From an uncultured Opitutia bacterium (GTDB lineage: Bacteria; Verrucomicrobiota; Verrucomicrobiia; Opitutales; Coraliomargaritaceae), in the NCBI GenBank assembly GCA_937136395.1, contig CAKZOI010000010.1, forward strand, positions 1 through 64,000: DNA of 64,000 nt, in the 5' to 3' direction. Position 1 is the stretch's first letter. Each line of letters opens with the position of its first letter. Below are positions 8,494 through 59,008 of the stretch, piece after piece. The notes below the pieces were generated by a model. The model was not told the DNA's origin. It was given only the letters and a program-made list of their open reading frames with translations, and made no database searches. Position numbers and translations under genes: made by a program.

Positions 8494-8810
8494 AAGGAGA
8501 ACAGCTTTGCTGTTATTCGAGTTTAGAGTTTGAGTGCAGAGGAAATGATGATGACTTTGAAAAAGTCGTGGTTGAAGCACTAATTAGTGGGAGCATCTTG
8601 CTCCCAATTTGTTATTCACACGGGGAACTGGAAGCTCCGCTACTTTTAATCCAAGAGGAGCGCCCAATCTGCAAAGGAATGCATGACTCGGTATACATGC
8701 TGGACCACTTCCCCGCCGCGTAAAACGCTGCGCGCACGCGGCTGGCTTGCTGGGCTCTTCCTAACTTAGGAGGAGCGTTTGGCTTAGGCTGGGGATAAAG
8801 AATTCAGTGC

Positions 8811-8893
8811 GTAGGTTAGGCATTCCTGCCTGACCACGTTTTGGCTGGTTCTGGATGGAACGGTGAGTAGTCAGGCAAGAGTGTCTAACTTAC
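8811..8893. repeat. inverted pair of GTAG-stem-CACTCCTG elements (TCAGG stem)
   Basis: Left arm GTAGGTTAGGCATTCCTGCC then TGAC; right arm GTCAGGCAAGAGTGTCTAAC then TTAC in the opposite sense. Each arm is itself a hairpin and the two arms together form a larger one. Other copies are at 11406-11564, 55360-55566 and 58985-59008. Confidence 0.8.
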
Positions 8894-8908
8894 GCTGGGC
8901 TCTGTGAT

Positions 8909-8934
8909 AAAGCGACAAGAGTGTCGCTTCTACG
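8909..8934 (-). repeat. GTAG-stem-CACTCTTG element (AGCGA stem)
   Basis: The minus strand reads GTAGAAGCGACACTCTTGTC then GCTTT. Stem AGCGACA pairs with TGTCGCT around CTCT. Other copies: 9693-9718, 13742-13766, 13811-13836, 18861-18885 and 18911-18936. Confidence 0.8.
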
Positions 8935-8937
8935 TGG

Positions 8938-9564
8938 CTAAACACTTAAATCGAAAGTGACACTGCCGATCGCGCTGCCTTTCTTGTAAATTTTGGCGGA
9001 GGATTTGCGCTTGTCGCGAGCTTTGGGGCCGACGGGAATCTCTGCGAGTCGTATGCGTTCTTCGAGCTTGAGTTCGATGCTGATTGGGCCAGGAACTAGG
9101 GATTCACTGTCGAGGTCGATACCGCCAGAAGCGAGGAATGATAGATCGTTCGACTCTAGGGCGTTGCTGACTTCATCAAAGGGGACTTCAATGAGTTCGC
9201 GTAGCCCTTTCGCAAATGCTGAAATACTGAGACTGGGAAACGCTGAAAAAGATGCGGCTTCGCCAAGGCCTTGAATGCCAGTGGCGAGGAGCTGCTTTAG
9301 AAACTGGTTGAGCTCAGGGTGTTTAAGGGGACGAGTGATACTCACTTTGATACCAAAAGGACCGTCGACTTTTTCTTTGAGGAGCGCTTTCTCGTAAAAG
9401 GGTGCACGGGCGAGGCTCACCTTTCCTTTGGTGAGACGTAGGTCTTTGAGCGCGGACTTTTTCGCGATCCCTGGGCGAGGCAGGATCAGCTCGGTGAGGA
9501 CCAGACACTCCCCGGTTTGATTCAGAGGTGCATCGAGTGTGAGTGCTTTCAAGGAAAGGAGCAT
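8938..9564 (-). CDS. hypothetical protein
   Basis: 208 residues, not recognised. It starts MLLSLKALTLDAPLNQTGEC and ends KKGSAIGSVTFDLSV. It is rich in Leu, Lys and Ser, has no signal peptide or obvious membrane segment, and contains alternating short strand-like stretches (IKVSITRPL, ISIELKLEERIRL), which would fit a beta-rich fold. It stands alone, separated on both sides by palindromic repeats, with the O-antigen ligase upstream and the epimerase downstream. Codon use is like its neighbours and the frame is intact, so a real gene is likely, but no function can be given. Confidence 0.6.
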   Translation of the reverse strand: MLLSLKALTLDAPLNQTGECLVLTELILPRPGIAKKSALKDLRLTKGKVSLARAPFYEKALLKEKVDGPFGIKVSITRPLKHPELNQFLKQLLATGIQGLGEAASFSAFPSLSISAFAKGLRELIEVPFDEVSNALESNDLSFLASGGIDLDSESLVPGPISIELKLEERIRLAEIPVGPKARDKRKSSAKIYKKGSAIGSVTFDLSV

Positions 9565-9692
9565 GGGCGGCGCGACGAGGTTACTGTATTTTAGACAGAA
9601 TGATTTCTTGAGAGGTGGCTGTTAACGACTACGCCGTTTATCGAATTGGGAGTTTTAAAGGGAAAGTGGCACGGTTGGGAAGTTGAGATTTA

Positions 9693-9756
9693 GTAGAAGC
9701 GACACTCTTGTCGCTTTTAATTCTGATGGGATAAAGCGGTTAAAACCGCTTCTACG
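9693..9756. repeat. inverted pair: AGCGA-stem element and AAGCGGTT element
   Basis: Left: GTAGAAGCGACACTCTTGTC then GCTTTT (9693-9718). Right: AAAGCGGTTAAAACCGCTTC then TACG (9733-9756), whose opposite strand begins GTAGAAGCGG. The two share the GTAGAAGCG start but carry different loops (CTCT versus TTAA). The TAG of the right copy is the stop codon of the O-antigen ligase gene. Confidence 0.8.
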
Positions 9757-11350
9757 TCGTTGAGTGACGTTTCCGCCGTGCGCCTTCCAATTGAAACAAC
9801 TTTGCGATACCAGTCAGCAAGCCGATGAGAGCGACCCAATAGGCAGGACTATTGAGAATGAATTCGATAAAGGCGTGAGCGATGATCGTCGCAAAGCCGA
9901 CAATCAAGTGGAAAGTGGAGAGTGGGAAGTGGAGGATAGAAGATGCTGACAAACTGAAAGGCTGAAAAGCGGAAATTATAAGCGATCCAAAGGTGAGGAC
10001 GAGGAGACTGCAGCCGATGGCTCCGTATTCGGCCCAAAATTGTAGGATGTCATTGTGCGCGTAGTGATAAACTTTTCGCCCAAGCCATTCGCCTTTTTTC
10101 TGATGGTAACGACTATAAAATAGCTCGGGGATCTTCTGCTGATAGATCGGGAAAATATAACGAAAGGAACCTGCACCCCAGCCCATTAACGATCGATCCT
10201 GTGCCATTTCGTAGGTCGCCCGACTCGAAAGAGTGCGGGCGTCTTGATCGGCATTCTCAATGGTCGCGCCTACATCCCCAAAACGCTCTTGGATCGCTTC
10301 AACATCAATTTGCTGAATCATGAAAAACGCGCCTGCTCCAAAGAGCCCCGCGACGAGTAAGGAGATTGAAAGGGAACTGAGGATCCTTCTGGTGGCCATC
10401 AGGGTGCGAAGAATGACACCTAGAACGAACGCGATCGAGAGCACTGAAGCAAAGAGGATACACCCGCGGGAAAGGGCGAGGCCTACCGAAGCGGCGACGA
10501 GCGCGAAGAAGATAAATAGTAAAAAATGCGGGCCCCCACTCTGCGCAGATTCTTCGGCTTTTTTAGCGTGATAAAAATACAACACCCCAATTCCGACGAG
10601 CATGAGGTTCAAGTAGGCTGCCCCTTGGTTCCGGTAAAAGAACGAGCCCCAGAAATTATCATTGGCGGATTTTAGGGTCCAAAGGACTTTGTCAGACTCG
10701 GTAAGGTCTTGCAGGATCGCGACCATCGCCATGGCGGTGCCGCTGACGACCAAGGACCAGAGCAGGATAAGCGCAGTCTTGCGACACGTGATCCCCGCCC
10801 AGATTCCCCACATAAGAACGAAGGATGCGGCAAACCACTCCAAAACGCGAAAGGCGTTCATTTGCTCGTATTCTGAACGCACACTCGTAGGCAACCATTC
10901 TGCCAGAGGCGGAGTCATTCTTTCCACCCACCAGCCGCCTTCACCGTGAACGACTGTGATCGATGGGTTGCAAGCTTGAATGGTTAGGTAGAGAAGGAAT
11001 AATAGGGAGAACCAAAAAGAGGGCCAACGCATCAAGCGTGTAACGCCTGATACGTTGAAAAAGCTAAAACGCTGAGATGCTGAAACGCTGAAACTTGAAT
11101 CAACGGATGCGGTTCGGGACGAACTTGCGCTACCAGATTCTGGACCTTTCACCGCGGACTGTTTACGTGGCCAGATAGCTGTAAGAAACGTCAACAGTCC
11201 TCCTATCAACATGACGTGCACCGTCCATGGAATCACTCCGGCGAAGCCCCAAGCGGTGAATGCAAGGGTGATGGACGCAAACCCGCAAACGAGCCATTCT
11301 TGGATCGAAATTCGTGGGCGCGAAGTTCGATGTTTTCGTTTAGAGTTCAA
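9752..11350 (-). CDS. O-antigen ligase/polymerase family membrane protein
   Basis: 532 residues with about ten membrane segments. The periplasmic loop GWGAGSFRYIFPIYQQKIPE, followed by HYAHNDILQFWAEYG, is the Wzy_C (O-antigen ligase) signature. It either ligates polysaccharide to lipid A core or polymerises lipid-linked units; sequence cannot decide. The start is a TTG (TTGAACTCTAAACG); no ATG precedes the first membrane segment. Two parts look repeat-derived: residues about 73-104 (GSASSSRTASVDSSFSVSAS on to NVSG) and about 457-481 (SAFQPFSLSASSILHFPLST). The stop TAG belongs to the palindrome at 9733-9756. Confidence 0.8.
   Translation of the reverse strand: MNSKRKHRTSRPRISIQEWLVCGFASITLAFTAWGFAGVIPWTVHVMLIGGLLTFLTAIWPRKQSAVKGPESGSASSSRTASVDSSFSVSASQRFSFFNVSGVTRLMRWPSFWFSLLFLLYLTIQACNPSITVVHGEGGWWVERMTPPLAEWLPTSVRSEYEQMNAFRVLEWFAASFVLMWGIWAGITCRKTALILLWSLVVSGTAMAMVAILQDLTESDKVLWTLKSANDNFWGSFFYRNQGAAYLNLMLVGIGVLYFYHAKKAEESAQSGGPHFLLFIFFALVAASVGLALSRGCILFASVLSIAFVLGVILRTLMATRRILSSLSISLLVAGLFGAGAFFMIQQIDVEAIQERFGDVGATIENADQDARTLSSRATYEMAQDRSLMGWGAGSFRYIFPIYQQKIPELFYSRYHQKKGEWLGRKVYHYAHNDILQFWAEYGAIGCSLLVLTFGSLIISAFQPFSLSASSILHFPLSTFHLIVGFATIIAHAFIEFILNSPAYWVALIGLLTGIAKLFQLEGARRKRHSTT
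9908..9980 (-). repeat. low-complexity repeat inside the O-antigen ligase 3' region
   Basis: The plus strand carries GTGGAAAGTGGAGAGTGGGA next to GCTGACAAACTGAAAGGCTG. The second part is of the same GCTGAAA(AC) type that fills gaps at 15358-15393, 17277-17325, 17727-17780 and 18735-18770. Here it is translated as SAFQPFSLSASSILHFPLST. Confidence 0.6.
11041..11134 (-). repeat. GCTGAAAC tract plus GGTAGCGCA palindrome inside the ligase gene
   Basis: Bases 11048-11097 are a GCTGAAAC-type degenerate tandem tract (GCTGAGATGCTGAAACGCTG). Bases 11105-11134, read on the minus strand, are a GGTAGCGCA element with stem GTTCG/CGAAC and loop TCC. Both are translated in frame just after the second membrane segment (residues about 73-104), in a Ser-rich stretch. 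Confidence 0.7.
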
Positions 11351-11405
11351 ATTGAAAGCGAGTGCGAACGGTTGAGCGCGAAGTGGGGAGTTCTTGATTC
11401 AGTGC

Positions 11406-11564
11406 GTAGGTCAGGCAAGAGGGCCTAACCATGCTGCGAGTAATACCTTACAGCCAGACAAGAGTGTCTAGCTTACGTAATAGTAGGTTAGGCACTCCTG
11501 CCTGACTATTTTACGAGTAATGCCTTAAGTTCGCTGATCAGCCAGACAGGAGTGTCTGGCTTAC
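11406..11564. repeat. four GTAG/TCAGG-type palindromic elements
   Basis: Copies at about 11406-11430, 11450-11476, 11482-11505 and 11541-11564, alternating in orientation. Stems vary (TCAGG, CCAGACA, TTAGGCA) while AAGAG/CACTC loops and GTAG or GTAAG ends are kept. They fill the gap between rmlB and the O-antigen ligase, which holds no gene. Confidence 0.75.
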
Positions 11565-11574
11565 ATAGTTCGAA

Positions 11575-12759
11575 TTATGAGTTCCCCAACCGCTCTAACT
11601 GATAGGAACCATCCAAGATGGCTTCCCACCATTTAGAGTTGTTCAAATACCAGAGGACCGTTTTTCGAAAACCGGACTTAAAGTCTTCCTTCGGTTCCCA
11701 ACCAAGCTCATCTCGTATCTTACTTGCATCAATTGCATAGCGCATGTCGTGGCCGGGGCGATCTTTTACAAACGTTATGAGGGACTCATAGCTTTTGTTA
11801 GAAGGCAGAAGAGAGAAATCAGTAGTCAGATTCTTCTCAAGTTTCGCTTGGTATTCAGGAACCAGCTCATCCATCAACCGACAGAGCATCCTGACAAGTT
11901 CAATATTCTGACGCTCGTTGTTCCCGCCGATATTATAGGTTTCACCCTGTCGACCTTTTGTCAGAACAGTATACAATGCCTTTGCATGGTCAGTCACGTA
12001 TAGCCAATCGCGTATGTTTTCACCCTTACCATACACAGGGATCGATTCTCCCCGTAGGCATTTCAATATAACAACTGGAATCAGTTTTTCAGGAAATTGA
12101 TAGGGGCCGTAATTATTGGAGCAATTCGTCACCAAAACCGGCAAGCCATAAGTGTCTGCCCAAGCACGTGCTAAATGATCGGAAGCTGCTTTGGATGCAG
12201 AATAAGGGGAATGCGGATCGTATGATGTGGTTTCTGAAAAACCAGCAGCATCGGCTTCCAAAGAACCATAAACCTCATCAGTAGAAACATGTAAAAATCG
12301 GAATGCCGACTTCGTCGGCAATGACTGATGGCTAATGGCTGATGGCTGATCTGAAACAGCGGATACCAACGTAGCGGACGACACGGAGGTCGTCCCTCCA
12401 GTTGGAAGCGATCTCCAATACTCGAGTGCAGCTTGTAGGAGATTAAAGGTGCCGACCACATTGGATTGAATAAACTCACCTGGTCCATCAATCGAGCGGT
12501 CGACATGACTTTCGGCAGCAAGGTGCATGATCGAATCAGGTTGGTGAGCCTCCACGCATTCGCGCACCGCCTCGGCATCACAAAGATCCACCTGCTCAAA
12601 GGTATAGTTCGGATTATCCGTCAGATCGGACAAGGACTCTGGATTGCCCGCATAGGTTAGCTTATCTAAATTCACGACCGACACGCCCTTTTCAAGGACA
12701 AGTAGTCGTACGAGGTTGGATCCGATAAAGCCAGAACCGCCGGTGACCAGAATCCTCAT
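11575..12759 (-). CDS. rmlB: dTDP-glucose 4,6-dehydratase with a repeat-encoded insertion
   Basis: 394 residues; RmlB is usually about 330-360. [10 protein letters not shown] is the NAD loop, STDEVYG holds the catalytic Thr-Asp-Glu (about 160-162), YSASK the catalytic Tyr/Lys, and [30 protein letters not shown] and [11 protein letters not shown] are family signatures. It converts dTDP-glucose to dTDP-4-keto-6-deoxyglucose, the substrate for the sugar aminotransferase. Residues about 118-149, between YWRS and KSAFRF, are an extra segment of roughly 26-30 residues where E. coli RmlB has about six. Its DNA (12304-12401) is built from palindromic elements otherwise found in gaps. The frame and all catalytic residues are intact. 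Confidence 0.95.
12304..12401 (-). repeat. palindromic elements inserted in frame in rmlB
   Basis: On the coding strand the segment starts with TGGAGGGACGACCTCCGTGT then CGTCC, a TGGAGGG-stem-CTCCGT element with stem GGACGAC/GTCGTCC. A short tract of CAGCCAT/TAGCCAT repeats follows, then the palindrome TGCCGACGAAGTCGGCA at 12304-12320. The first element matches intergenic copies at 22453-22535 and 48414-48711. Confidence 0.85.
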
Positions 12760-12792
12760 CTTATAATATAGTTAAAGTTACCAATCTCACCA

Positions 12793-13665
12793 TTACACAA
12801 ATGAACCCAATGCTACTTTTCTTAAATAATTACCATATCCAGATTTTGTATATTTATCTGCGAGATGAAGTAACTGCTGGCGGTCGATAAACTTAGAATA
12901 AAAGGCGACTTCCTCAATACAGCCGATCTTGGTATTCTGACGCTCCTCAATAACGCGAATAAATGTCGAGGCCTCATTTAGGGAGGCGAATGTTCCAGTA
13001 TCTAACCATGCGATTCCTCGATTGAATACGCTTACCTTCAGCTTCTGGCGCTCAAGATAGACCTGATTCACCGTGGTGATTTCATATTCTCCGCGTGCAG
13101 ATGGTTTGATATTTCCAGCAATGCTAACGACATCATTATCATAGAAATACAGCCCAGGCACTGCATAATTTGATTTCGGCGTGCTAGGCTTTTCTTCGAT
13201 CGAAATCGCATTGTTTTCTTCATCGAATTCAACAACTCCGTAACGTTCTGGGTCCTGGACTGATGACGCAAAAATGACCGCTCCGTCAAGATTCTGACTG
13301 GCACGCAGTAAACTGCCAAATCCGGAGCCATAGAAAATATTATCACCCAAAATCAAGGCAACCTTATCGCTGCCAATAAAATCTTTACCAATCACAAAGG
13401 CTTGAGCCAGGCCATTAGGCGTTTCTTGTATCGCAAACTCGAACCGACAACCCAGTGCGGAACCATCGCCTAATAATCGTTTAAACGCAGCCTGATCTTC
13501 AGCTGTTGTAATGATTAATATCTCGTTGATTCCCGCCAACATCAGAACAGTAAGCGGATAATAGATCATCGGCTTATCATAGATCGGCATGAGCTGCTTC
13601 GACACCGCGAGTGTAATCGGATGGAGTCGAGTGCCATTACCTCCTGCTAAAATGATACCTTTCAT
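12793..13665 (-). CDS. rmlA: glucose-1-phosphate thymidylyltransferase (copy 2)
   Basis: 290 residues from [18 protein letters not shown]; the frame continues upstream to 13782, but that stretch is intergenic repeat and the family starts at 13665. It carries the same signatures as copy 1 (GGxGxRLx[30 protein letters not shown]) and differs from it mostly by conservative changes and synonymous codons; by eye identity is above 80%. It directly precedes rmlB on the same strand (33-base gap), the classic rmlA-rmlB pairing. Copy 1 lies about 7.4 kb downstream next to the aminotransferase. Confidence 0.95.
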
Positions 13666-13712
13666 AAAAATCGTAGATTTTTGATTATTGATGCAAAATA
13701 AACGATGCTGGG

Positions 13713-13741
13713 GAACGGTTGCGCCGTTGTTCGAGTTATAA
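13713..13741 (+). repeat. GTTCGAG-tail palindromic repeat
   Basis: Reads AACGGTTGCGCCGTTGTTCG then AGTTATAAG: stem AACGG/CCGTT followed by the constant GTTCGAGTT tail of the family described at 5436-5527. Confidence 0.65.
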
Positions 13742-13836
13742 GTAGAAGCGACAGGAGTGTCGCTTTCCCATAAGTTACTCACACTTCCCTAACTAGCTTG
13801 CACTCGGATTAAAGCGACAGGAGTGTCGCTTCTACG
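13742..13836. repeat. pair of AGCGA-stem palindromic elements
   Basis: GTAGAAGCGACAGGAGTGTC then GCTTT at 13742-13766, and AAAGCGACAGGAGTGTCGCT then TCTACG at 13811-13836, inverted relative to each other at their ends. They fill the gap between the WecA-like gene and rmlA copy 2. Confidence 0.8.
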
Positions 13837-13838
13837 CA

Positions 13839-15350
13839 TCAATAAGTAGGACGGTAAAGTGATCTGGATTTTTGATCACGATAACTTTCTACATCCTTTG
13901 CAACGGCATCGAAATCTAAGGAGGATTGGTTCACTTCTTTCCAGCGCACGCCTGCTTTTGCCCAAGCTTCTGTTGCAATATCACAGATTAGTGTGAACTG
14001 TCTTTCAGAGAAGAATTCTTTCTCTCCATAAAGCACTAACCTCGCCTCAGCAGCGCCTCGAACGGTATGTTCTTCTAACCAGAGTAAATCCTCATTCTCA
14101 TGCTCCGTGTTCGGAACAAAAAAGGTGCGCAATTCCTCTCCGATCTGCATTTCAGCTCGGCATATCCCCATTTTCTTTAAAACGAAACGATAGTCTGCCC
14201 AAAGATTTTTTACAGAATCTGCGCGATCCACTTCTGATACGAACCAATCTTTTAGATAGAGCGCATTACGTGTATCTTTGCGCGCTTGCAGCGAATCAGA
14301 CAACAGCATCTGCACTGTTGACGCTGAGATCTTCTGCCCACGCAGGGTGAGCAAAATAACAACAAATGCGAAGCCGAGAAGAATCCCTAAATAACGCTCT
14401 TGAGAAGCAAACACCAATAGGCCCCCAATTAAGGCACAAAGTGAAATGACATAGAGCACTAAGACCGTATTCCGATGTGAGAACCCTGCGCGAATGAGTC
14501 GATGGTGTATGTGACTACGATCAGGTCGAAACAGTGGCAAACCCTTGAGGCCGCGCCGGAGCATGGCAAAAGTAACATCAGCGATGGGTAGGGCCAGAGC
14601 TAAAACGGGCGCAATTAAGGCTGCTAAAACCGTTCCCTTTTCCGAATTGATCAAGGATAAGGCGGCAATGACATAACCGATTAAATATGCCCCAGAATCA
14701 CCCATATAAACTTTCGCGGGTGGAAAGTTATGAAACAAAAAGCCCAAGATCGCACCAGCCATACCAATGGCCAAAATGGACGAGAAGGCCACACCCTTCT
14801 CAATTCCCAAATAAGCGAGCATTGCCATCAGCATCAGACCCACTCCACCTGCTAAGCCATCCAAGCCATCAATCAAATTTATCAAGTTCATAATGGCAAC
14901 AAACCAAAAGACGGTTAACCCCATGCCAATAATTCCTAAGTCTGGAATGTAACCGATAACGGGCAATGATAGCTTATCAATCGAAAGGCCACACTCGTGC
15001 GCGACCATCGCAATGATAATCTGTGCGAGCAATTTTAGTTTCGCGCCAAGTGGATAAAAGTCATCGACAAATCCCAGCATGAACGCCGCAACGCCACCGC
15101 CAAAGACCGCGTAATGGACTAAAGTCTTATTATCCGTATCGTCTAATAGAAAAAAGCACAGCAGGTACGTGACCGCAAAGCCTGCGATTATCCCGACACC
15201 ACCTACACGTGGAATCACGCCAGTATGTGTGTGGTGATGCTGTGGCTCTGCATCGCCGCCTTGTCCAAAACCGACAGCAAGGAGACCTTGCACCACAAGC
15301 CAAGAGGCAAAACAGCCCAATAAGAGAAAAAATAGTATGGGAAACAACAT
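13839..15350 (-). CDS. WecA/TagO-like undecaprenyl-phosphate sugar-1-phosphate transferase with C-terminal extension
   Basis: 503 residues: about eleven membrane segments (1-325), then a soluble tail of roughly 170 residues. Family motifs of the MraY/WecA superfamily are present: GVIPRVGGVGI, GFVDDFYPLGAKLK (Asp pair), NLINLIDGLDGLAGG, VYMGDSGAYLIG and the HIHHRL loop. It would start repeat-unit synthesis by transferring a HexNAc-1-phosphate to undecaprenyl phosphate in the inner membrane. The tail (from about KISASTVQMLLSDSLQ) has no motif I recognise; Opitutae homologues may share it. It is the most upstream gene of the polysaccharide cluster. Confidence 0.9.
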   Translation of the reverse strand: MLFPILFFLLLGCFASWLVVQGLLAVGFGQGGDAEPQHHHTHTGVIPRVGGVGIIAGFAVTYLLCFFLLDDTDNKTLVHYAVFGGGVAAFMLGFVDDFYPLGAKLKLLAQIIIAMVAHECGLSIDKLSLPVIGYIPDLGIIGMGLTVFWFVAIMNLINLIDGLDGLAGGVGLMLMAMLAYLGIEKGVAFSSILAIGMAGAILGFLFHNFPPAKVYMGDSGAYLIGYVIAALSLINSEKGTVLAALIAPVLALALPIADVTFAMLRRGLKGLPLFRPDRSHIHHRLIRAGFSHRNTVLVLYVISLCALIGGLLVFASQERYLGILLGFAFVVILLTLRGQKISASTVQMLLSDSLQARKDTRNALYLKDWFVSEVDRADSVKNLWADYRFVLKKMGICRAEMQIGEELRTFFVPNTEHENEDLLWLEEHTVRGAAEARLVLYGEKEFFSERQFTLICDIATEAWAKAGVRWKEVNQSSLDFDAVAKDVESYRDQKSRSLYRPTY

Positions 15351-15658
15351 ACTAGGAAATGCTGAAACGCTGAAACGCTGAAAAACTGAAAATCAAATAG
15401 AAGATATGTAAACCTTACGAAAGCAGTGAGTGAATGGCGAATGAATACCGGAACTGTAACTAATTGAATCAGCTACGATGCCGATTTTCAAATCTCAGTG
15501 TTTCAGATTTTCAGTGTTTCAGATTTTTAAACAGCACGCTACCGCCATTGGTCGTTCGGGAAATATTCCGAGACTTTCTAGTCGGCCTTCGCCGATGATA
15601 GCTAATTTGTGATAGCTAGAAATGAACTGTAGCAGCGGAAAGTCCGCTGGTTTGAGGT
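15351..15658. other. gene-free gap with low-complexity repeats
   Basis: No gene seen. It holds two GCTGAAAC-type tracts in opposite senses, GCTGAAACGCTGAAACGCTG near 15361-15380 and TTTCAGATTTTCAGTGTTTC near 15500-15525. It also has the small palindrome GTCGGCCTTCGCCGATGA (15580-15597) and AGCGGAAAGTCCGCT (15635-15649). The CTTCG-stem-ATGA arrangement of the first palindrome resembles the one inside rmlB at 12304-12326. Confidence 0.6.
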
Positions 15659-16240
15659 TTATATTACGACATCATCATTGGATGGGATGTCTTCTAAAAA
15701 TTTTGCTCCTCCGAGAGCAGCCATGACTACTGGCAACAGGCGACGTATACGCTTTTGCCAATTACTCAGCGTGCTTAAGCGCTGCATGGCGTGCTCACGA
15801 ATGGCGGCGTCGCTCTCAGAGTCAATCAATTCGCGGACTTGAGCCATGCGACTTTCTCCCGACTCAATATGCGGATTGAATTGATCTCTAATGAAACCAC
15901 GAACGAGGCGCTTCATAGACAATTCAGGGACATAGTGGTCTTTACGGTCACCCGCGACATACTGCAGTTGAACCGCTCCGAGCTGTCTCAAGACTTTAAG
16001 CCCTTGGCTGACTGAGCCACGACTGATCCCCAAACGCTTTTGTAATGCATCAAAGGTCATCGGTTGGCTTGCGCAAAACAACAAGCCATAGATTTCTCCA
16101 ATGGAGCGCGGCAAACCAACCAAGTTAGCCGCACGCACAAACATCTCAATCATGGAGGTCTCCCATGGGGCGAGCGCAAGCGGCTTGGAATCTGATACTT
16201 GAGGGGTGGAGTTCATACAAACTCGATCAGAAAAGAGCAT
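15659..16240 (-). CDS. GbsR/MarR-type transcriptional regulator
   Basis: 193 residues. After an N-terminal helix (MIEMFVRAANLVGLPRSIGE, then IYGLLF) comes the winged helix LQKRLGISRGSVSQGLKVLR and the wing YVAGDRKDHYVPE; the C-terminal half is helical. This is the GbsR layout; in Bacillus GbsR controls choline and glycine-betaine uptake and synthesis. No osmolyte gene is next to it. A 9-bp perfect inverted repeat (16248-16273) just upstream suggests autoregulation. Two starts are possible, ATG at 16240 (MLFSDRV) and ATG at 16216 (MNSTPQ); neither has a clear ribosome-binding site, and the later one leaves more room for the promoter. Confidence 0.85.
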   Translation of the reverse strand: MLFSDRVCMNSTPQVSDSKPLALAPWETSMIEMFVRAANLVGLPRSIGEIYGLLFCASQPMTFDALQKRLGISRGSVSQGLKVLRQLGAVQLQYVAGDRKDHYVPELSMKRLVRGFIRDQFNPHIESGESRMAQVRELIDSESDAAIREHAMQRLSTLSNWQKRIRRLLPVVMAALGGAKFLEDIPSNDDVVI

Positions 16241-16247
16241 TTACGCG

Positions 16248-16273
16248 CTTTGTTCAAGATTTTTTGAACAAAG
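16248..16273. promoter_or_regulatory. candidate operator of the GbsR-type regulator
   Basis: Perfect inverted repeat CTTTGTTCA-N8-TGAACAAAG, 7 to 32 bases upstream of the two possible starts of the regulator gene. Arm length and spacing fit a dimeric winged-helix repressor. Function is inferred from position only. Confidence 0.6.
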
Positions 16274-16299
16274 TAAACATAGATGCAATTGATTGATAA

Positions 16300-16581
16300 C
16301 TAATGCTTTAGCCAAACGATAGTCGCTCCCCAGCTACCTTCGGATTGATCTGCAAGTTGAAAGCGTTGAACCCGCTCATCGCGCCGAAGTAAGGCATGCA
16401 CCGTTTCACGTAAAGTTCCAATCCCTTTACCGTGAATGATACGCAGTCGACGTATGTCCTGCTCTAGGCATGCCTCGATGTAATCAGGGATCAGCTCCCC
16501 AAGATCGGACGGTCGAAACGTGTGTAGGTCGAGCTCTCCATTGATGGGAAAATCTACGGGGTCTGAATCGTCGTTCGACAT
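16300..16581 (-). CDS. Smr-domain protein
   Basis: 93 residues from MSNDDSDPVDFPINGELDLH. The motif LDLHTF and the C-terminal IIHGKGIGTLRETVHALLRR are the two signatures of the small MutS-related (Smr) domain, found in MutS2 and in free-standing nucleases such as E. coli YdaL/YfcN. An upstream in-frame reading to 16788 exists but runs through pdxH antisense-frame sequence and a palindromic repeat, so I set the start at 16581. Stand-alone Smr proteins act as endonucleases on branched DNA or on mRNA; which applies here is unknown. It follows pdxH with a 43-base gap occupied by a repeat. Confidence 0.85.
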   Translation of the reverse strand: MSNDDSDPVDFPINGELDLHTFRPSDLGELIPDYIEACLEQDIRRLRIIHGKGIGTLRETVHALLRRDERVQRFQLADQSEGSWGATIVWLKH

Positions 16582-16605
16582 GAGGGATGCTCTCAAATAA
16601 GGATT

Positions 16606-16629
16606 AAAGCGGTTAAAACCGCTTCTACG
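16606..16629 (-). repeat. AAGCGGTT palindromic element at the end of pdxH
   Basis: The minus strand reads GTAGAAGCGGTTTTAACCGC then TTTA. Its TAG is the pdxH stop codon. The other copy, at 9733-9756, likewise ends a gene. Confidence 0.8.
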
Positions 16630-17266
16630 GCGCCAAGCGTTCGGGCGCGCTCCAATTACCGGATTCATCCCAGCGATACATAAAGCGGTCATGCAGGCGA
16701 GAGGCCCCTCCCTGCCAGAACTCGAATGCCTTGGGCACAATTCGATAGCCTCCCCAGTGGTCGGGCAAGGGCACTTTCCCATCGGCAAACTTACGCTTCA
16801 TTTGATCTAACTTCGCTTCTAGAAGCTGTCGTGAACCAATGACTTTACTCTGCGGCGAAGTCCACGCACCCAACTGGCTTGCAAAGGGGCGGGAAAGGAA
16901 ATACTTTAGCGATTCTGCTTTAGACACCCGTTCGACAGTGCCAGTGACATTCACCTGCCTTTGCAGAGGCAACCAGAGGAAATTGGCGCTCACTTGTGGG
17001 TTTGCGTCCAGTTCGCGCGCTTTACGGCTTTCGTAGTTGGTATAAAAGACGAGACCCTCTGCCGAGAACGCTTTCAACAAAACGATCCGTGTCGAAGGTT
17101 GACCTGTAGCGTCAGCCGTCGCTAAACAGAACGCATTGGGCTCATCGAGTTCACACGCCTCTGCTTCTTTGAACCATTTCTCAAATTGCGCAAAAGGGCA
17201 CTCCGCAAGATCGGATGCATCCAATGCATGCTTGGTATATTCAGCTCTACGATCTGAGAGGTCCAT
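16625..17266 (-). CDS. pdxH: pyridoxamine 5'-phosphate oxidase
   Basis: 213 residues, normal for PdxH. Signatures: [11 protein letters not shown] (FMN binding), [52 protein letters not shown] and the C-terminal [18 protein letters not shown], which carries the PLP-binding RLHDR. It makes pyridoxal phosphate from the 5'-phosphates of pyridoxine or pyridoxamine with FMN and oxygen. The normal C-terminal end (WxxxRLAP) is complete. The stop codon TAG comes from the palindromic element at 16606-16629 that abuts it, so the element probably inserted at, or replaced, the original stop. Confidence 0.95.
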
Positions 17267-17276
17267 AGGAAAAATC

Positions 17277-17325
17277 TGAAACGCTAAAATACGGAAACGT
17301 TAAAATACTGAAACGCTAAAACAAT
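17277..17325 (+). repeat. GAAACGCTAAAA tandem tract (3' flank of four-helix-bundle gene)
   Basis: Degenerate direct repeats of about 15-16 bases: GAAACGCTAAAATACG, GAAACGTTAAAATACT, GAAACGCTAAAAC. The tract at 17720-17786, on the other side of the gene, has the inverse sense (TTTCAGCGTCTCAGC). Confidence 0.75.
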
Positions 17326-17332
17326 TATAGGG

Positions 17333-17689
17333 CTATCTTCGACGTAATTTGGATACAATTGTAGTAAATATTGCGATCAACTCAGAACACTCTCCATGAA
17401 TTGGATCAATATTACCAGTTGAAATCCCGCAATCTTCCGCCAAATGCTCAAGCCATAAAGCACTCTCATCGGACTCTTGCAAAAGCACATCAAGCTTAGA
17501 ACAAAATTCCGAATCAGAGCGTGCCCGGGATGCTTCTCTAGCATGAGCCGCCACTGAAGTCGCTGAACGCAGCAACTGCTTACCAATCACTGCGGCCTCC
17601 ACACGTTCTTTCGGCAACGCGATATATAAACGAATTACCGAAGAAGAAAACTGCTTGGTTCGATTTCTCAACTCTTCAGATAAGCGCAT
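17333..17689 (-). CDS. four-helix-bundle protein (23S rRNA intervening-sequence protein family), copy 2
   Basis: 118 residues. It starts MRLSEELRNRTKQFSSSVIR, then IALPKERVEAAVIGKQLLRS, ATSVAAHAREASRARSDSEF and a C-terminal ELIAIFTTIVSKLRR, the order typical of the S23/four-helix-bundle family. It is only distantly similar to the copy at 5552-5899. It lies between pdxH and trxB and both flanks are low-complexity repeats in inverse orientation. Its function is unknown; related proteins are encoded in rRNA intervening sequences, and a related fold (Avd) serves in diversity-generating retroelements, but no reverse transcriptase is present here. Confidence 0.85.
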   Translation of the reverse strand: MRLSEELRNRTKQFSSSVIRLYIALPKERVEAAVIGKQLLRSATSVAAHAREASRARSDSEFCSKLDVLLQESDESALWLEHLAEDCGISTGNIDPIHGECSELIAIFTTIVSKLRRR

Positions 17690-17719
17690 CGTTCTAGTTT
17701 CAAATTTTTAGACATTAAA

Positions 17720-17786
17720 CATTTCAGCCTTTCAGCGTCTCAGCCTTTCAGCGTCTCAGCGTCTCAGCGTCTCAGCATTTCCTTCC
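17720..17786 (+). repeat. TTTCAGCGTCTCAGC tandem tract (5' flank of four-helix-bundle gene)
   Basis: About six imperfect repeats of TTTCAGC(C/G)T or CTCAGCGT (for example CTCAGCGTCTCAGCGTCTCA). It is the inverse of the GAAACGCT tract at 17277-17325 and belongs to the same family as tracts at 15358-15393 and 18735-18770. Confidence 0.75.
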
Positions 17787-17788
17787 GC

Positions 17789-18715
17789 CTACTGCTCCGC
17801 GAGCCAGCGCTCGGCTTCAATGGCGGCTTGGCACCCCATACCTGCGGCAGTGATTGCCTGACGATAAACATGGTCGACACAATCGCCCGCAGCATAAAAG
17901 CCTTCATACTTAGTCTTCACTTGGCTGCCAGCTTCTGGAACGATGTAGCCATCGCCATCACGATCGAGGACGCCATCTACAAAATCTGTATTCGGAATAT
18001 GACCAATCGCGATGAATGCACCCTTACATGGGATTTCACGTTCTTCGCCAGTGACCGTATCCTTGACCTTAATCGCACGTGTAAATCCTTGCTCATCCGC
18101 AAGAATTTCAGTCGGAGCCGAGTTCCACGCCATCTCGATCTTTTCGTGGGAAGTGGCACGATCGGCCATGATCTGCGACGCGCGCAACTCATCACGGCGG
18201 TGGATCAAGGTCACTTTCGAGCAAAAACGAGTCAAGAATAGGGCTTCCTCAGCAGCGGAATCGCCGCCACCGACAACCACTACATCCATGTCACGGTAGA
18301 AAGCGCCATCACAAGTAGCACATGTTGTCACTCCTTTGCCGCCGAACATTTCTTGCTCACCAGGGATGCCTAGTAAACGAGGACGAGCGCCAGTCGCGAC
18401 GATCACTGTCTTCGCCTCAAAAACCTTCTCGCCCGCATACAACTTCTTCACATCACCTTCGATTTCGACCTTGTCGATCTTAGCGTGCTCATAGCGTGCA
18501 CCGAAACGTGCAGCCTGCTTGCGCAAATTATCCATCATTGTGTAGCCGTCAATTCCCTCGGGAAAACCTGGAAAATTCTCCACCTCCGAAGTCGTGGTGA
18601 GTTGGCCACCCGGCTGCGAGCCTTCTAGAACGAGTGGGTTTAACTGAGCACGACCTGTGTAAATTGCTGCAGTGAGGCCTGCGCAGCCAGTTCCGAGAAT
18701 GATGACGTCTTCCAT
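17789..18715 (-). CDS. trxB: thioredoxin reductase
   Basis: 308 residues. It starts [20 protein letters not shown] (FAD loop); the redox pair is CATC in [13 protein letters not shown], followed by the NADPH loop [14 protein letters not shown] and the FAD C-terminal motif [19 protein letters not shown]. It reduces thioredoxin with NADPH in the cytoplasm. The FAD loop carries Cys in GTGCAG where GxGPAG is usual, a mild deviation. A low-complexity GCTGAAA tract lies directly upstream (18735-18770), so its promoter must lie in or before repeat sequence. Confidence 0.95.
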
Positions 18716-18981
18716 AATAATATTTTTTGAAAAGCTGTGATGCTGAAATTACTGAAACGCTGAAATTTGTTGAAAGCGTCGTGCGACGATGGAGCGGCTA
18801 CGCTGATATTCAAGTTTAGAGTTCAAGTTTAAGAGAGGATCGTCGATAACGGGGTATAAAGTAGAAGCGACACTCCTGTCGCTTTGTTACTGGATCGGCT
18901 CATGCTCGGGAAAGCGACAAGAGTGTCGCTTCTACGTAATCCAGTCTTGTCCTCACCTTCTTCACTAACAACTTTACACCT
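18716..18981. other. divergent gap between trxB and tatD, repeat-rich
   Basis: No gene seen. It contains a GCTGAAA tract (18735-18770), CGTCGTGCGACG (about 18778-18789) and an inverted pair of AGCGA-stem elements: 18861-18885 (GTAGAAGCGACACTCCTGTC then GCTTT) and 18911-18936 (AAAGCGACAAGAGTGTCGCT then TCTACG). Promoters for both genes must lie here, but I see no convincing -35/-10 pair. Confidence 0.65.
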
Positions 18982-19779
18982 ATGGATTTAATCGACAGTC
19001 ACTGCCACCTGAAAGGCTTTAAGGACAAGGGCGAACTCAACGCCGTGCTGCAACGTGCGGCGGACGCCGGCGTCACACGCTTGATTACTGTCGGCACTTC
19101 CCCCAAAGACTGGGTGCCGTATCGTGAAATGACTGCCGCCAATCCCGGAAAAATTGATTACACGGTCGGCCTCCACCCCTGCTATGTCGACGCCGAATGG
19201 AGCGACGCCGTTTCAAACATCTCGACCTTCTTCATTCCGCCCAACGCCCCCGTCGCCCTCGGAGAAATCGGGCTCGATTACTTCCATTTACCCAAAGACC
19301 CCGTCGAGGCAGGCGAACTCATGATTCACCAAGAGGAAGCCTTTCGTCAGCAGCTGATGCTGGCCGGGGAGCTCGACTGCCCCGTAGTCATTCACAGCCG
19401 CAATGCCTTTGACGACACCTTCCGTATGATTCAAGAATCTGGAGTGGATTGGAATCGTATCGTCTTTCACTGCTACAGTTATGGTGCCGAGGAAATCGCC
19501 AAAATAAACGAATGCGGCGGGCGCGGATCCTTCACTGGCATCGTCACCTATAAAAGTGCACCCGAGATTCGCGACGCGCTTCGAAGTCAAGGTATTGATC
19601 GCCTCATGCTGGAAACCGACTGCCCCTACCTCACCCCAGAACCACATCGCGGCAAGCCGAACGAACCTGCCTTTGTCGCCAATATCGCCGAACGCTGCGC
19701 GGAGGCGCTCGCTGTGCCACTCGATGAACTAGCGGCTCAAACAAGCGCGAACACAAAAGCCTTTTTCCAACTCGCTTAA
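18982..19779 (+). CDS. TatD family metal-dependent hydrolase
   Basis: 265 residues, full length. Metal ligands are visible in order: DSHCHL (residues 5-10), [22 protein letters not shown] and [15 protein letters not shown]. TatD proteins are TIM-barrel hydrolases acting as 3'-5' DNA exonucleases in repair; YcfH/YabD paralogues may have other substrates, so I give no specific symbol. It is the first gene of a plus-strand pair, with the repeat protein gene starting seven bases after its stop. Confidence 0.9.
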
Positions 19780-52897: not shown

Positions 52898-55363
52898 ATG
52901 TTTCGTATTTCATCTTCCCCCTATAAGCTAGCGCGCCGCATTGGCTTAATTGCGCTGCTTGCGACGCAGACTTTTTCAAGTGCATCTGCCGAGGCAGAGC
53001 TCACGCAAAGTGCAGAGATGGCCGCACAAACCCGTTGGGTAGTGAATACCATCAACGCCCGCCACTACCTGCGCGAGAGCATGAAATCGCTTGATGGCAC
53101 CGAAATCGTCGAGGCCTACGTCGAAAACTTCGACTACAGCCGCATGTATTTCCTGCGTAGTGAAATCGATGAATTCATCTTTCGTTTTGGGAACGCAATG
53201 GAGGAGTTTCTACAAAAAGGAAACCTCTACGCGGCCTTTGAAATTTACGAAGATTACAGAGAGCACGCAATCGCACGCACGAATTGGGCCTATGAACGCC
53301 TGGCACAAGACTTCGATTTCTCCACAGATGATAGCTTCGCTCCAGACCGCCGCGAGGCCGAATGGCCAAAGGACGAGGCAGAAGCCAACGACCTCTGGGA
53401 GCGTCGTTTGAAATATGAGCTCCTCAACGAAATGATGTCTTTGGCAAGTGAGGCGAAAGATGAAGACCAACCAGACGCCGAAGCAGCCGCAAACAAAGAC
53501 TCGAAGTCATCAAGCAAAAGCAGTCTCCAACCAAACAATCCTGATCTCTTTAGCGACACCGAAGAGGAAAAATTTGACCCAAGCAAGATCCTTAGACTGC
53601 TCAACGACGAGGCCTTCGCTGCCAAGATCCTCGACGAAGCTCGCGAAAAAATTCGCCGACGCTATGAGCGCAACCTTGGCTACACACTCGATCGCGAAGC
53701 CCCTGAAGTTCAAGAAGCCTTCATCAACGCGATGACGCAGCTCTTCGACCCGCACTCCACCTTCCTCTCCGCAGACACACTCGAGAGTTTCAACTCATCC
53801 GTGCAAAACTCCTTCGTCGGTATCGGTGCCCTGCTTGAAGACGCCGACGGGATCTGCACAATTAAGGAGCTCATCCCAGGGGGTCCCGCTGAAGAATCGC
53901 GCCTGCTCCACCCTGAAGATCAAATTCTAGGGGTCGCCCAAGGTAAAGACGGCGAGTTTGAAGATGTCGTGGATATGCAACTTCGCTATATCGTCCGTAA
54001 GATTAAAGGTGAAAAAAATACCATCGTCCGACTACTCATTCGCCCTGGAGATGCTTCAGACCCGTCCGTTCGCAAGGATATCTCAATCACTCGTCAAGAA
54101 GTGAAACTAACCGCCAACCTCGCCTCCGCGAAACTCATTAGCGTGCCAGTTGGCGATGAAAGCGTTCCTGTTGGCGTCATTGAGCTACCCTCTTTTTACG
54201 GCAATATCGGCGCTGGTAATACACTCACCACCACTTCAGATGACGTCACAGAGCTCATCGATAAACTCCGTAAAAAGGGGGCTCAGGGCCTGATACTTGA
54301 CCTTCGAATGAACGGCGGAGGCTTACTCAGTGAAGCCGTGCGCCTTGCTGGTCTCTTCATCCCAATCGGGCCAGTCGTGCAAGTGCGTGACAAAGATGGA
54401 CGCACAGATGTGCTCTCCGACCGAGACATGGGCGTGCAATGGGATGGCCCGCTCATCGTCCTCACATCACGCTTTAGTGCCTCCGCATCCGAAATTGTTG
54501 CTGGCGCGCTGCAAGATCACGACCGAGCCATTATCGTCGGAAATAGTTCGACTCACGGTAAAGGCACCGTCCAAGAAGTGTATCACATGAGAAATCGTCC
54601 TGCATTTTCATGGTTTAAAACGACCCCTGCCACACCGACAACCCGCCCAGTTGCTTCCAAGATTACCATCAAACAATTCTACCTACCAGACGGTAGTTCC
54701 ACTCAGGTAAAAGGCGTGCCTTCTGATATTGCACTCCCCTCCGTAAACGAATTTCTACCCATCGGCGAAGACGATTTGCCACACGCGCTGGTCTGGGACG
54801 AAGTCAAGCCAGTCAACTGGATAAACGATTGGAAAAAGCTCAATATTCCCAGTCCCCAAGATTCAGGGCTTATCGAAACCTTGCGAGCTGGCACAAACCA
54901 GCGGCTCGAAACACTGGAAGAGTTCCAGTTCCTAAAGCAACAGATTGAATGGCGTCGTCAGCGCTATGAAGAAAAGGACATTTCCATAAACCTCGAAAAA
55001 CGCATTAACAAAAAAATTCGCGAGCAAGCTTACGTCGAGCAACTCAACGATACTTACGATGCACTCTGTGAAAATGACTATGCCATCGAAGAGCTTAAAC
55101 TAAAGATTGCCGAAGAGCAGGACGAGATTTCCCGTAAAAACTTAAGTAATCCGATCGACGAAGCAGTCGAAAAAGCCGAAAGCATCGTCGCAGAGCTTAC
55201 CGGAGAAGCGACTACAGAAGTTGAATCAATCGAGGCCGCCGACACTCCCGAAGAGGAGGAAGACGAACCCAGCTATGATATTTATCTTCGTGAAAGTGCA
55301 CGCATCATGGCGGACTGGATCGAGATCATTGAAGCCGACACCACTGCAGTCAGCTCGCTGTAA
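52898..55363 (+). CDS. Prc-type C-terminal processing protease (S41)
   Basis: 821 residues with a signal peptide ([20 protein letters not shown]). Domains: N-terminal helical domain (to about 270), PDZ (about 275-370), S41 catalytic core with the Ser in [20 protein letters not shown] and the Lys in [12 protein letters not shown], and a DUF3340-like C-terminal part (about 610-760). In E. coli, Prc trims lipoproteins and cell-wall enzymes in the periplasm. A low-complexity acidic insert (about 185-225) is present. The stop TAA is the first three bases of the palindromic repeat that follows, so the end of the gene abuts or was set by the repeat. Confidence 0.93.
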
Positions 55364-55443
55364 GTCAGACACTCTTGTCTGACTCGTTCAGTGCCTCAGC
55401 CTCCCGAGTAACAAACACGGTCAGGCAGGAGTGCCTGACCTAC
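55360..55443. repeat. inverted pair of TCAGA/TCAGG-stem elements (unit 1)
   Basis: GTAAGTCAGACACTCTTGTC then TGAC at the left; GGTCAGGCAGGAGTGCCTGA then CCTAC at the right. The left TAA is the protease stop codon. Confidence 0.88.
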
Positions 55444-55484: not shown

Positions 55485-55566
55485 GTAAGTCAGGCACTCT
55501 TGTCTGACTCGTTCAGTGCCACAGCCTTCCGCTTTACAAACGGGTCAGGCAGGAGTGCCTGACCTA
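55485..55566. repeat. inverted pair of TCAGG-stem elements (unit 2)
   Basis: Almost an exact copy of 55360-55443: GTAAGTCAGGCACTCTTGTC then TGACTCGTTCAGTGCC; the right arm is GGTCAGGCAGGAGTGCCTGA then CCTAC. The right arm carries the end of prmC on the minus strand (its last codons and TGA). Confidence 0.88.
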
Positions 55567-56405
55567 CAGAAAAAAAATCGCGGGCGGCCGCTCATATCGT
55601 CAAACGATTCGCCAGTCATCTCGGCCGACTTCGCCAGCTCGGTGAGCTGCTGAGTTTGGGCGATCCCAGTCTCCATTGCCAAAAGTCCGCCTACTGCCAA
55701 ATAGCGAGGAGCGCTTTCCATAATAATACGCAAGTCGTCCAAACCATCCGCCCCTGAAACTAGCGCCGTGCTCGGCTCATGCCCAAACACCTCCGGCTCG
55801 GCAGTGGTCATTTCGTCTTCAGTCAAATACGGCGGGTTCGAAACGATCAAATCAAACCGTTCATCCTTAGCAATCGGTTCAAACCACGAACCTTGTTTCA
55901 AACTGACACGATCTGCTAAGCCTAGGCTCTCGATGTTTTCAGTAGCAAGAGCGAGCGCCTCCTCACTAAAATCGACTCCCGTGACTTCCGCCTCTGGGTA
56001 AAGTGTCGCCAACGCCAATGCCAATGCCCCCGTGCCGGTGCCGAGGTCCAAAATTCGTTTAGTTGCGGTCTGCTCTTTCAATCTATCGGCAATCAACTCG
56101 ACCAACTCCTCGGTTTCCGGCCGTGGAATCAAAGCACGAGCATCCACCTTCAACTTCAAATCACAAAACTCTACGTTCCCTATGATATACTGTAACGGCT
56201 CACGCTGCGAACGACGCTTCACCATTGGTCGTAGTTCCGCCAACTGTGCTTCAGTCAACGGTCGCTCCAAATCGAGATACAAATCTAAGCGCTTCATCCC
56301 GAGCGAATGCGCAATCAACAAATCGGTATCCAGCTTCGGATCGGGCACCCCCTTCTCCTGAAAGAAAGCTTCCGTGCGCTCTTTGATTTCACGAATGGAT
56401 AACAT
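55545..56405 (-). CDS. prmC: release factor glutamine methyltransferase
   Basis: 286 residues. [20 protein letters not shown] (SAM loop) and SNPPYL (NPPY) are the catalytic signatures; [20 protein letters not shown] and [14 protein letters not shown] are PrmC N-terminal/linker blocks. It methylates the Gln of the GGQ motif of release factors; prfA lies 217 bases upstream on the same strand, its substrate. The last residues (CRSGTPA) and the TGA stop are encoded by the palindromic repeat at 55485-55566, so the family C-terminus (GRPRFFFCR) has been extended or replaced there. Confidence 0.93.
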
Positions 56406-58984: not shown

Positions 58985-59008
58985 GTAAGTCAGACACTCT
59001 TGTCTGAC
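58985..59008 (+). repeat. TCAGA-stem palindromic element
   Basis: GTAAGTCAGACACTCTTGTC then TGAC; single copy just after the HAD-phosphatase gene, identical to the left arm at 55360. The following gap (59009-59158) also contains AATGCT-CAA-AGCATT. Confidence 0.8.

Follow-up and report, generated by a model that had tools for sequence, protein, structure and literature searches.

GTAG-headed hairpins of an uncultured Opitutia bacterium very probably form REP families mobilised by a RAYT system

REPs and REPINs are short GTAG-tagged DNA hairpins that are recognised and spread through the genome by a dedicated transposase, the REP-associated tyrosine transposase (RAYT, TnpA_REP). Complementary stem changes, coevolution of RAYT and REP, and the build-up of REPs near acquired rayt genes have been described (Nunvar 2010, PMC2817692), as have GTAG subfamilies with alternative complementary stems, including those of Opitutus terrae (Di Nocera 2013, PMC3733652), so that GTAG repeats in Verrucomicrobia are already on record. 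For group 3 enzymes, in vitro work has shown that the GTAG motif and positions in the loop are important, whereas exchanging much of the stem has a moderate effect (PMC8266576). Here we analysed a 64-kb window, that is, the whole stretch of DNA under study, which is contig C10 in a draft genome of 3.18 Mb. Its hairpins very probably represent two REP families, or arguably three if a third type is counted, organised as REPINs and mobilised by a RAYT system; the mechanism is this established one and not a new one.

The repeats are real and lie far above chance. GTARNNNNNNCACTCYTG occurs 14 times in the window, against 0.01 expected from shuffles, and 79 times genome-wide, against once for the reversed control. 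The two main types share a layout in which a GTAG or GTAA head precedes a stem of 8 bp that is closed by a pyrimidine loop, CTCY, with GTAG-AAGCGACA-CTCY-TGTCGCTT in the AGCGACA type and GTA(A/G)-GTYAGRCA-CTCY-TGYCTGAC in the TCAGG type. Counting by stem class with pattern searches across the genome, as the original prediction had proposed, gave 49 copies of the TCAGG type (up to 2 mismatches) and about 30 of the AGCGACA type, of which 27 are exact GTAGAAGCGACACTCYTGTCGCTT (CTCY loop) and half (15 of ~30) lie on contig C39. The majority of copies are REPINs, inverted pairs with heads outward and mostly 62-96 bp long, and homology between copies usually stops at the heads. The 17 TCAGG dimers span 62-84 bp, most commonly 80-84 bp, and in 13 of them the ends are unlike, GTAG on one side and GTAA on the other (permutation p about 0.05). 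With its GTAG-type head, palindrome, dispersed copies and inverted dimers, the TCAGG type has the features of a REP, as does the AGCGACA type, in which the GTAG head stands directly 5' of a short palindrome in many dispersed copies. The predicted existence of separate subfamilies with a common logic of head and loop, the copies of each class dispersed, is borne out.

All of the predicted copies of the three types exist in the window, some of them shifted by a few bases. AGCGACA-type REPs form both ends of the REPINs at 13742-13835 (13742-13765, +, with the apex/loop inverted, and 13812-13835, -) and 18861-18935 (18861-18884, +, and 18912-18935, -), the left end of a mixed REPIN at 9693-9755 (9693-9716, +) and a single REP at 8910-8933 (-). 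TCAGG-type REPINs lie at 8811-8893 (8811-8834, +, and 8870-8893, -, the latter with a GTAA head), at 11406-11476 (a degenerate left end at 11406-11429, +, and GTAAGCTAGA... at 11453-11476, -) and at 11483-11564 (11483-11506, +, and 11541-11564, -, the latter with the compensatory change GCCAGACA/TGTCTGGC), and a single REP stands at 58985-59008 (+). Two further TCAGG-type REPINs are arranged in tandem, one at 55360-55443 with a GTAA head on the left and a GTAG head on the right (hairpins 55360-55383, +, and 55420-55443, -) and one at 55485-55567 (55485-55508, +, and 55544-55567, -); the right-hand hairpin of each had been missed in the prediction, whose other TCAGG copies are all present.

The third type (AAGCGG...CCGCTT) shares its lower stem with the AGCGACA type but not its top; it is an AAGCG-based variant that arguably counts as a third REP family. 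One copy, AAGCGGT-TTTA-ACCGCTT at 9734-9755 (-), forms the right end of the mixed REPIN 9693-9755, so that this REPIN has one end of each type, and its TAG closes a 548-codon open frame; the other is single (16607-16628, -). In REPINs of relatives, too, one hairpin is often A-T-closed and its partner T-A-closed (GACA-TTCC-TGTC with GGTT-TTCC-AACC). The TAG or TAA of the head is often the stop codon of an upstream open frame (9734-9755 and 55360-55383 in the window; C39:88758, 87885 and 74473), and frames of 100 codons or more end in this way in 12 of 83 hairpin copies, compared with 1 and 5 in the two remaining frames. The CTCCGT family (window positions 12376, 22478, 48438 and 48651), for which the same logic had been claimed, does read on its other strand as a hairpin that has a GGAG head, TCC within the loop and different stems, and is probably another REP family. 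Short tandem repeats with TGATGGC and CGCTGAAA units occur at 12317-12350 and 15349-15391, with several matches in the congener G001.

As predicted, the stems change on both arms, and the changes are compensatory. Within the genome, 98.5% of stem cells are paired and 23 are changed on both sides, against 6.7 ± 2.0 in shuffles, and pairing collapses in slid-partner controls. When RAYT-linked hairpins are taken together with the two window types, pairing extends to 100% of cells, with 43 changed on both sides, and is abolished by sliding the partner. Single strands fold far better than shuffles (z -3.6 to -8.1), and the GTAGGTTAGG variant forms a T-G wobble on the GTAG strand where the other strand would have an A-C mismatch, which makes the GTAG strand the probable functional fold. 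Both classes share the predicted ends and CACTCYTG, but the latter is only partly loop, because it comprises the pyrimidine loop CTCY and the two top base pairs (C-G and A-T). What the AGCGACA and TCAGG types have in common is a 12-nt apex, GACACTCTTGTC, and thus more than the loop alone.

A candidate transposase is encoded on contig C39. A 209-aa RAYT (Y1/HUH; C39:88,129-88,758) lies amid AGCGACA arrays that together span C39:87885-88955, with four direct copies (61-bp period) and one inverted copy upstream and three plus one downstream, and the RAYT stop codon is provided by the first of the downstream copies through its GTAG head. The protein matches PF01797 (Y1_Tnp; E 7e-10) and NF047646 (REP tyrosine transposase; E 6e-13, under the curated cut-off). 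It carries HVH (HUH) at 139, KY in the tyrosine position and, at 178, WQKETYDHIVR, which matches the GTAG-contact residues W94/Q95/(E100D)/H101/R104 of E. coli TnpA_REP. As a Y1 protein with HUH, a single Tyr and the GTAG-contact residues, it is at motif level a RAYT (TnpA_REP). A plasmid search with it returned one distant match only.

Two other RAYTs in the genome have different repeats around them. One (C22:355554-356051; L011) contains one disrupting TGA and has its own repeats, GTAGCGTGC.GCTTTAGCAAACG, on each side, and a broken one on contig C74 (C74:39904-40703; also L015) is ringed by GTAGCCTCG...CGGGG hairpins with a constant outer part and a variable inner stem (AAAC/GTTT, GGTTC/GAACC, GGTGC/GCACC). 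Four near-identical elements of ~190 bp with GTCTCAAAA...TTTTGAGAC ends (C71:129881; C74:4822, 19355 and 40267) carry a TCAGG REPIN mid-element, and one of them interrupts the RAYT gene on C74. That gene was not broken directly by insertion of a REPIN, the insert being the larger element that carries it.

RAYT-linked hairpins were compared in 57 relatives, calls near RAYTs demanding a GTAG, GGAG or GTAA head. The RAYTs of two genomes of another genus, G010 and G018, are 60% and 59% identical to the C39 RAYT and are flanked by the identical 24-nt hairpin, with inverted copies on both sides of the gene as on C39. A RAYT at 47% identity is flanked by GTAG-AAGCGGCT-TCC-AGCCGCTT, and the hairpins of remoter homologues have a GTAG or GGAG head, other stems and TTCC, TCC, TTTA or ACC loops, which mostly contain TC; GACA-TTCY-TGTC apices are also found with related RAYTs. 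On a tree of 43 RAYTs in which many forks are open, REP class changes 8 times, where 200 shuffles required 13 or more changes (mean 15.9), and the GTAG/GGAG head changes once, against at least 5. Hairpin class follows the RAYT tree, consistent with coevolution of REP and RAYT. The relatives thus offer a natural series for what a RAYT reads, since 40%-diverged enzymes keep the whole hairpin, and at 47% identity or less the stem shifts, in some cases together with the head (GTAG to GGAG), while the loop mostly stays TC-rich.

By analogy with the E. coli, Stenotrophomonas and Marinomonas systems, each hairpin on its GTAG strand would be a recognition site for a RAYT, which would bind both the GTAG head, as a single strand, and the pyrimidine-looped hairpin. 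The putative substrate of the C39 enzyme is single-stranded GTAGAAGCGACACTCTTGTCGCTT. The RAYT would cleave near the hairpin, and the inverted pair would be moved or copied via single-stranded DNA. Stems could change because the enzyme would read mainly head, loop and fold and so tolerate paired changes; head and loop would be kept because they are read, the stem being comparatively free while it pairs. The general mechanism copying loop and ends that had been postulated is unnecessary, because a RAYT recognising head, loop and fold suffices to explain the pattern (PMC2817692, PMC8266576).

Across the order (372 genomes), the AGCGACA hairpin is found in the source genome, in ten genomes of genus g9 and as one copy in G012, and a pattern search of the same set shows it to be absent from both congeners. 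This family is young and has its own RAYT; its distribution points either to acquisition by transfer or to loss in the congeners. In the same 372 genomes, the TCAGG hairpin occurs in the source genome and the congener G001 only, the latter with 1 exact copy, or 6 when up to one mismatch is allowed. G001 retains one decayed TCAGG hairpin at the site orthologous to the 55360 REPIN and a decayed REPIN at that of the 58985 REP, where G002 has none. At 13742, the one AGCGACA site compared, the orthologous gap in G001 is shorter and without the hairpin, in an alignment that gives no exact junction. Because G001 has decayed orthologous hairpins of the TCAGG type and none at this AGCGACA site, the TCAGG type appears to be a separate, older family in the lineage, decaying in G001. 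None of the 13 RAYT-model matches in the assembly is flanked by its own TCAGG pair, so that we infer the enzyme of this family and file the family as orphan and REP-like rather than as a RAYT-associated REP. Candidates for a cognate RAYT at the contig ends of C20 and C72 or on C25 proved to be other tyrosine transposases without TCAGG flanks.

The word superfamily, used in the original prediction, overstates the kinship of classes that differ in spacers, phyletic distribution and apparent age. The main argument for a common origin is the shared 12-nt apex, which could reflect descent or convergence on one RAYT type. That the two families are unrelated in origin, their apices having converged on RAYTs that prefer the same loop, is a serious possibility to which we give somewhat less than an even chance: the spacers and the phyletic ranges differ as that would predict, but the similarity extends over 12 apical nucleotides, beyond the loop, and the apices of related RAYTs have the GACA-TTCY-TGTC form too. 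It is unlikely, though conceivable, that the orphan TCAGG hairpins are also substrates of the AGCGACA RAYT by virtue of the common apex GACA-CTCY-TGTC, one transposase maintaining an older, foreign family. If it did, head and apex, not the lower stem, would set specificity in the C39 RAYT clade, and an orphan family with the same apex in the same genome is a test case for such cross-recognition.

Outside the REP reading, the hairpins might be kept by selection at the ends of genes for a function in RNA, either as intrinsic terminators or in RNA processing. Many copies do lie just past stop codons, the hairpins are stable, and RNA would tolerate G-U wobbles. However, terminator-like sites in 8500-19000 show no excess over shuffles (14 versus 12.1 ± 3.4), by which intrinsic terminators are rejected, as a known RNA family is by the lack of an Rfam match, and the inverted pairs, the directional GTAG head and the RAYT flanking would be left unexplained, making this account highly improbable. 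That the hairpins are passengers in MITEs of an ordinary DDE insertion sequence, as the four REPINs within ~190-bp elements, one of them interrupting a RAYT gene, might suggest, is scarcely credible when the GTCTCAAAA...TTTTGAGAC flanks are missing from most TCAGG REPINs and all AGCGACA copies and homology usually ends at the heads.

Read as REPs mobilised by a RAYT, the repeats resemble the Stenotrophomonas and gammaproteobacterial RAYT-associated REPs (PMC2817692) in the GT(A/G)G head, the short-loop palindrome, the inverted copies flanking rayt, the complementary stem changes, the RAYT-REP coevolution and the gathering of REPs near an acquired rayt. They differ in that relatives here also have GGAG heads, unmentioned there, that the loops are mainly TC-containing pyrimidine loops, and that one family is without a cognate RAYT. 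The GTAG families (PMC3733652; 24 published consensus families) are alike in their published description, being tagged hairpins sorted by stem and loop, with complementary-stem subfamilies and homo- and heterodimers. Pseudomonas REPINs (Bertels and Rainey 2011, PMC3116915) and E. coli BIMEs likewise consist of two inverted REPs and a spacer as a unit, with asymmetric ends in many copies, whereas here there are tens of copies rather than hundreds and the GTAG/GTAA heads of the TCAGG type differ in 13/17. Finally, Marinomonas REPMb (PMC8266576) shares the TTTA loop of the third type, although its 5-bp stem stands 2 bases from GTAG.
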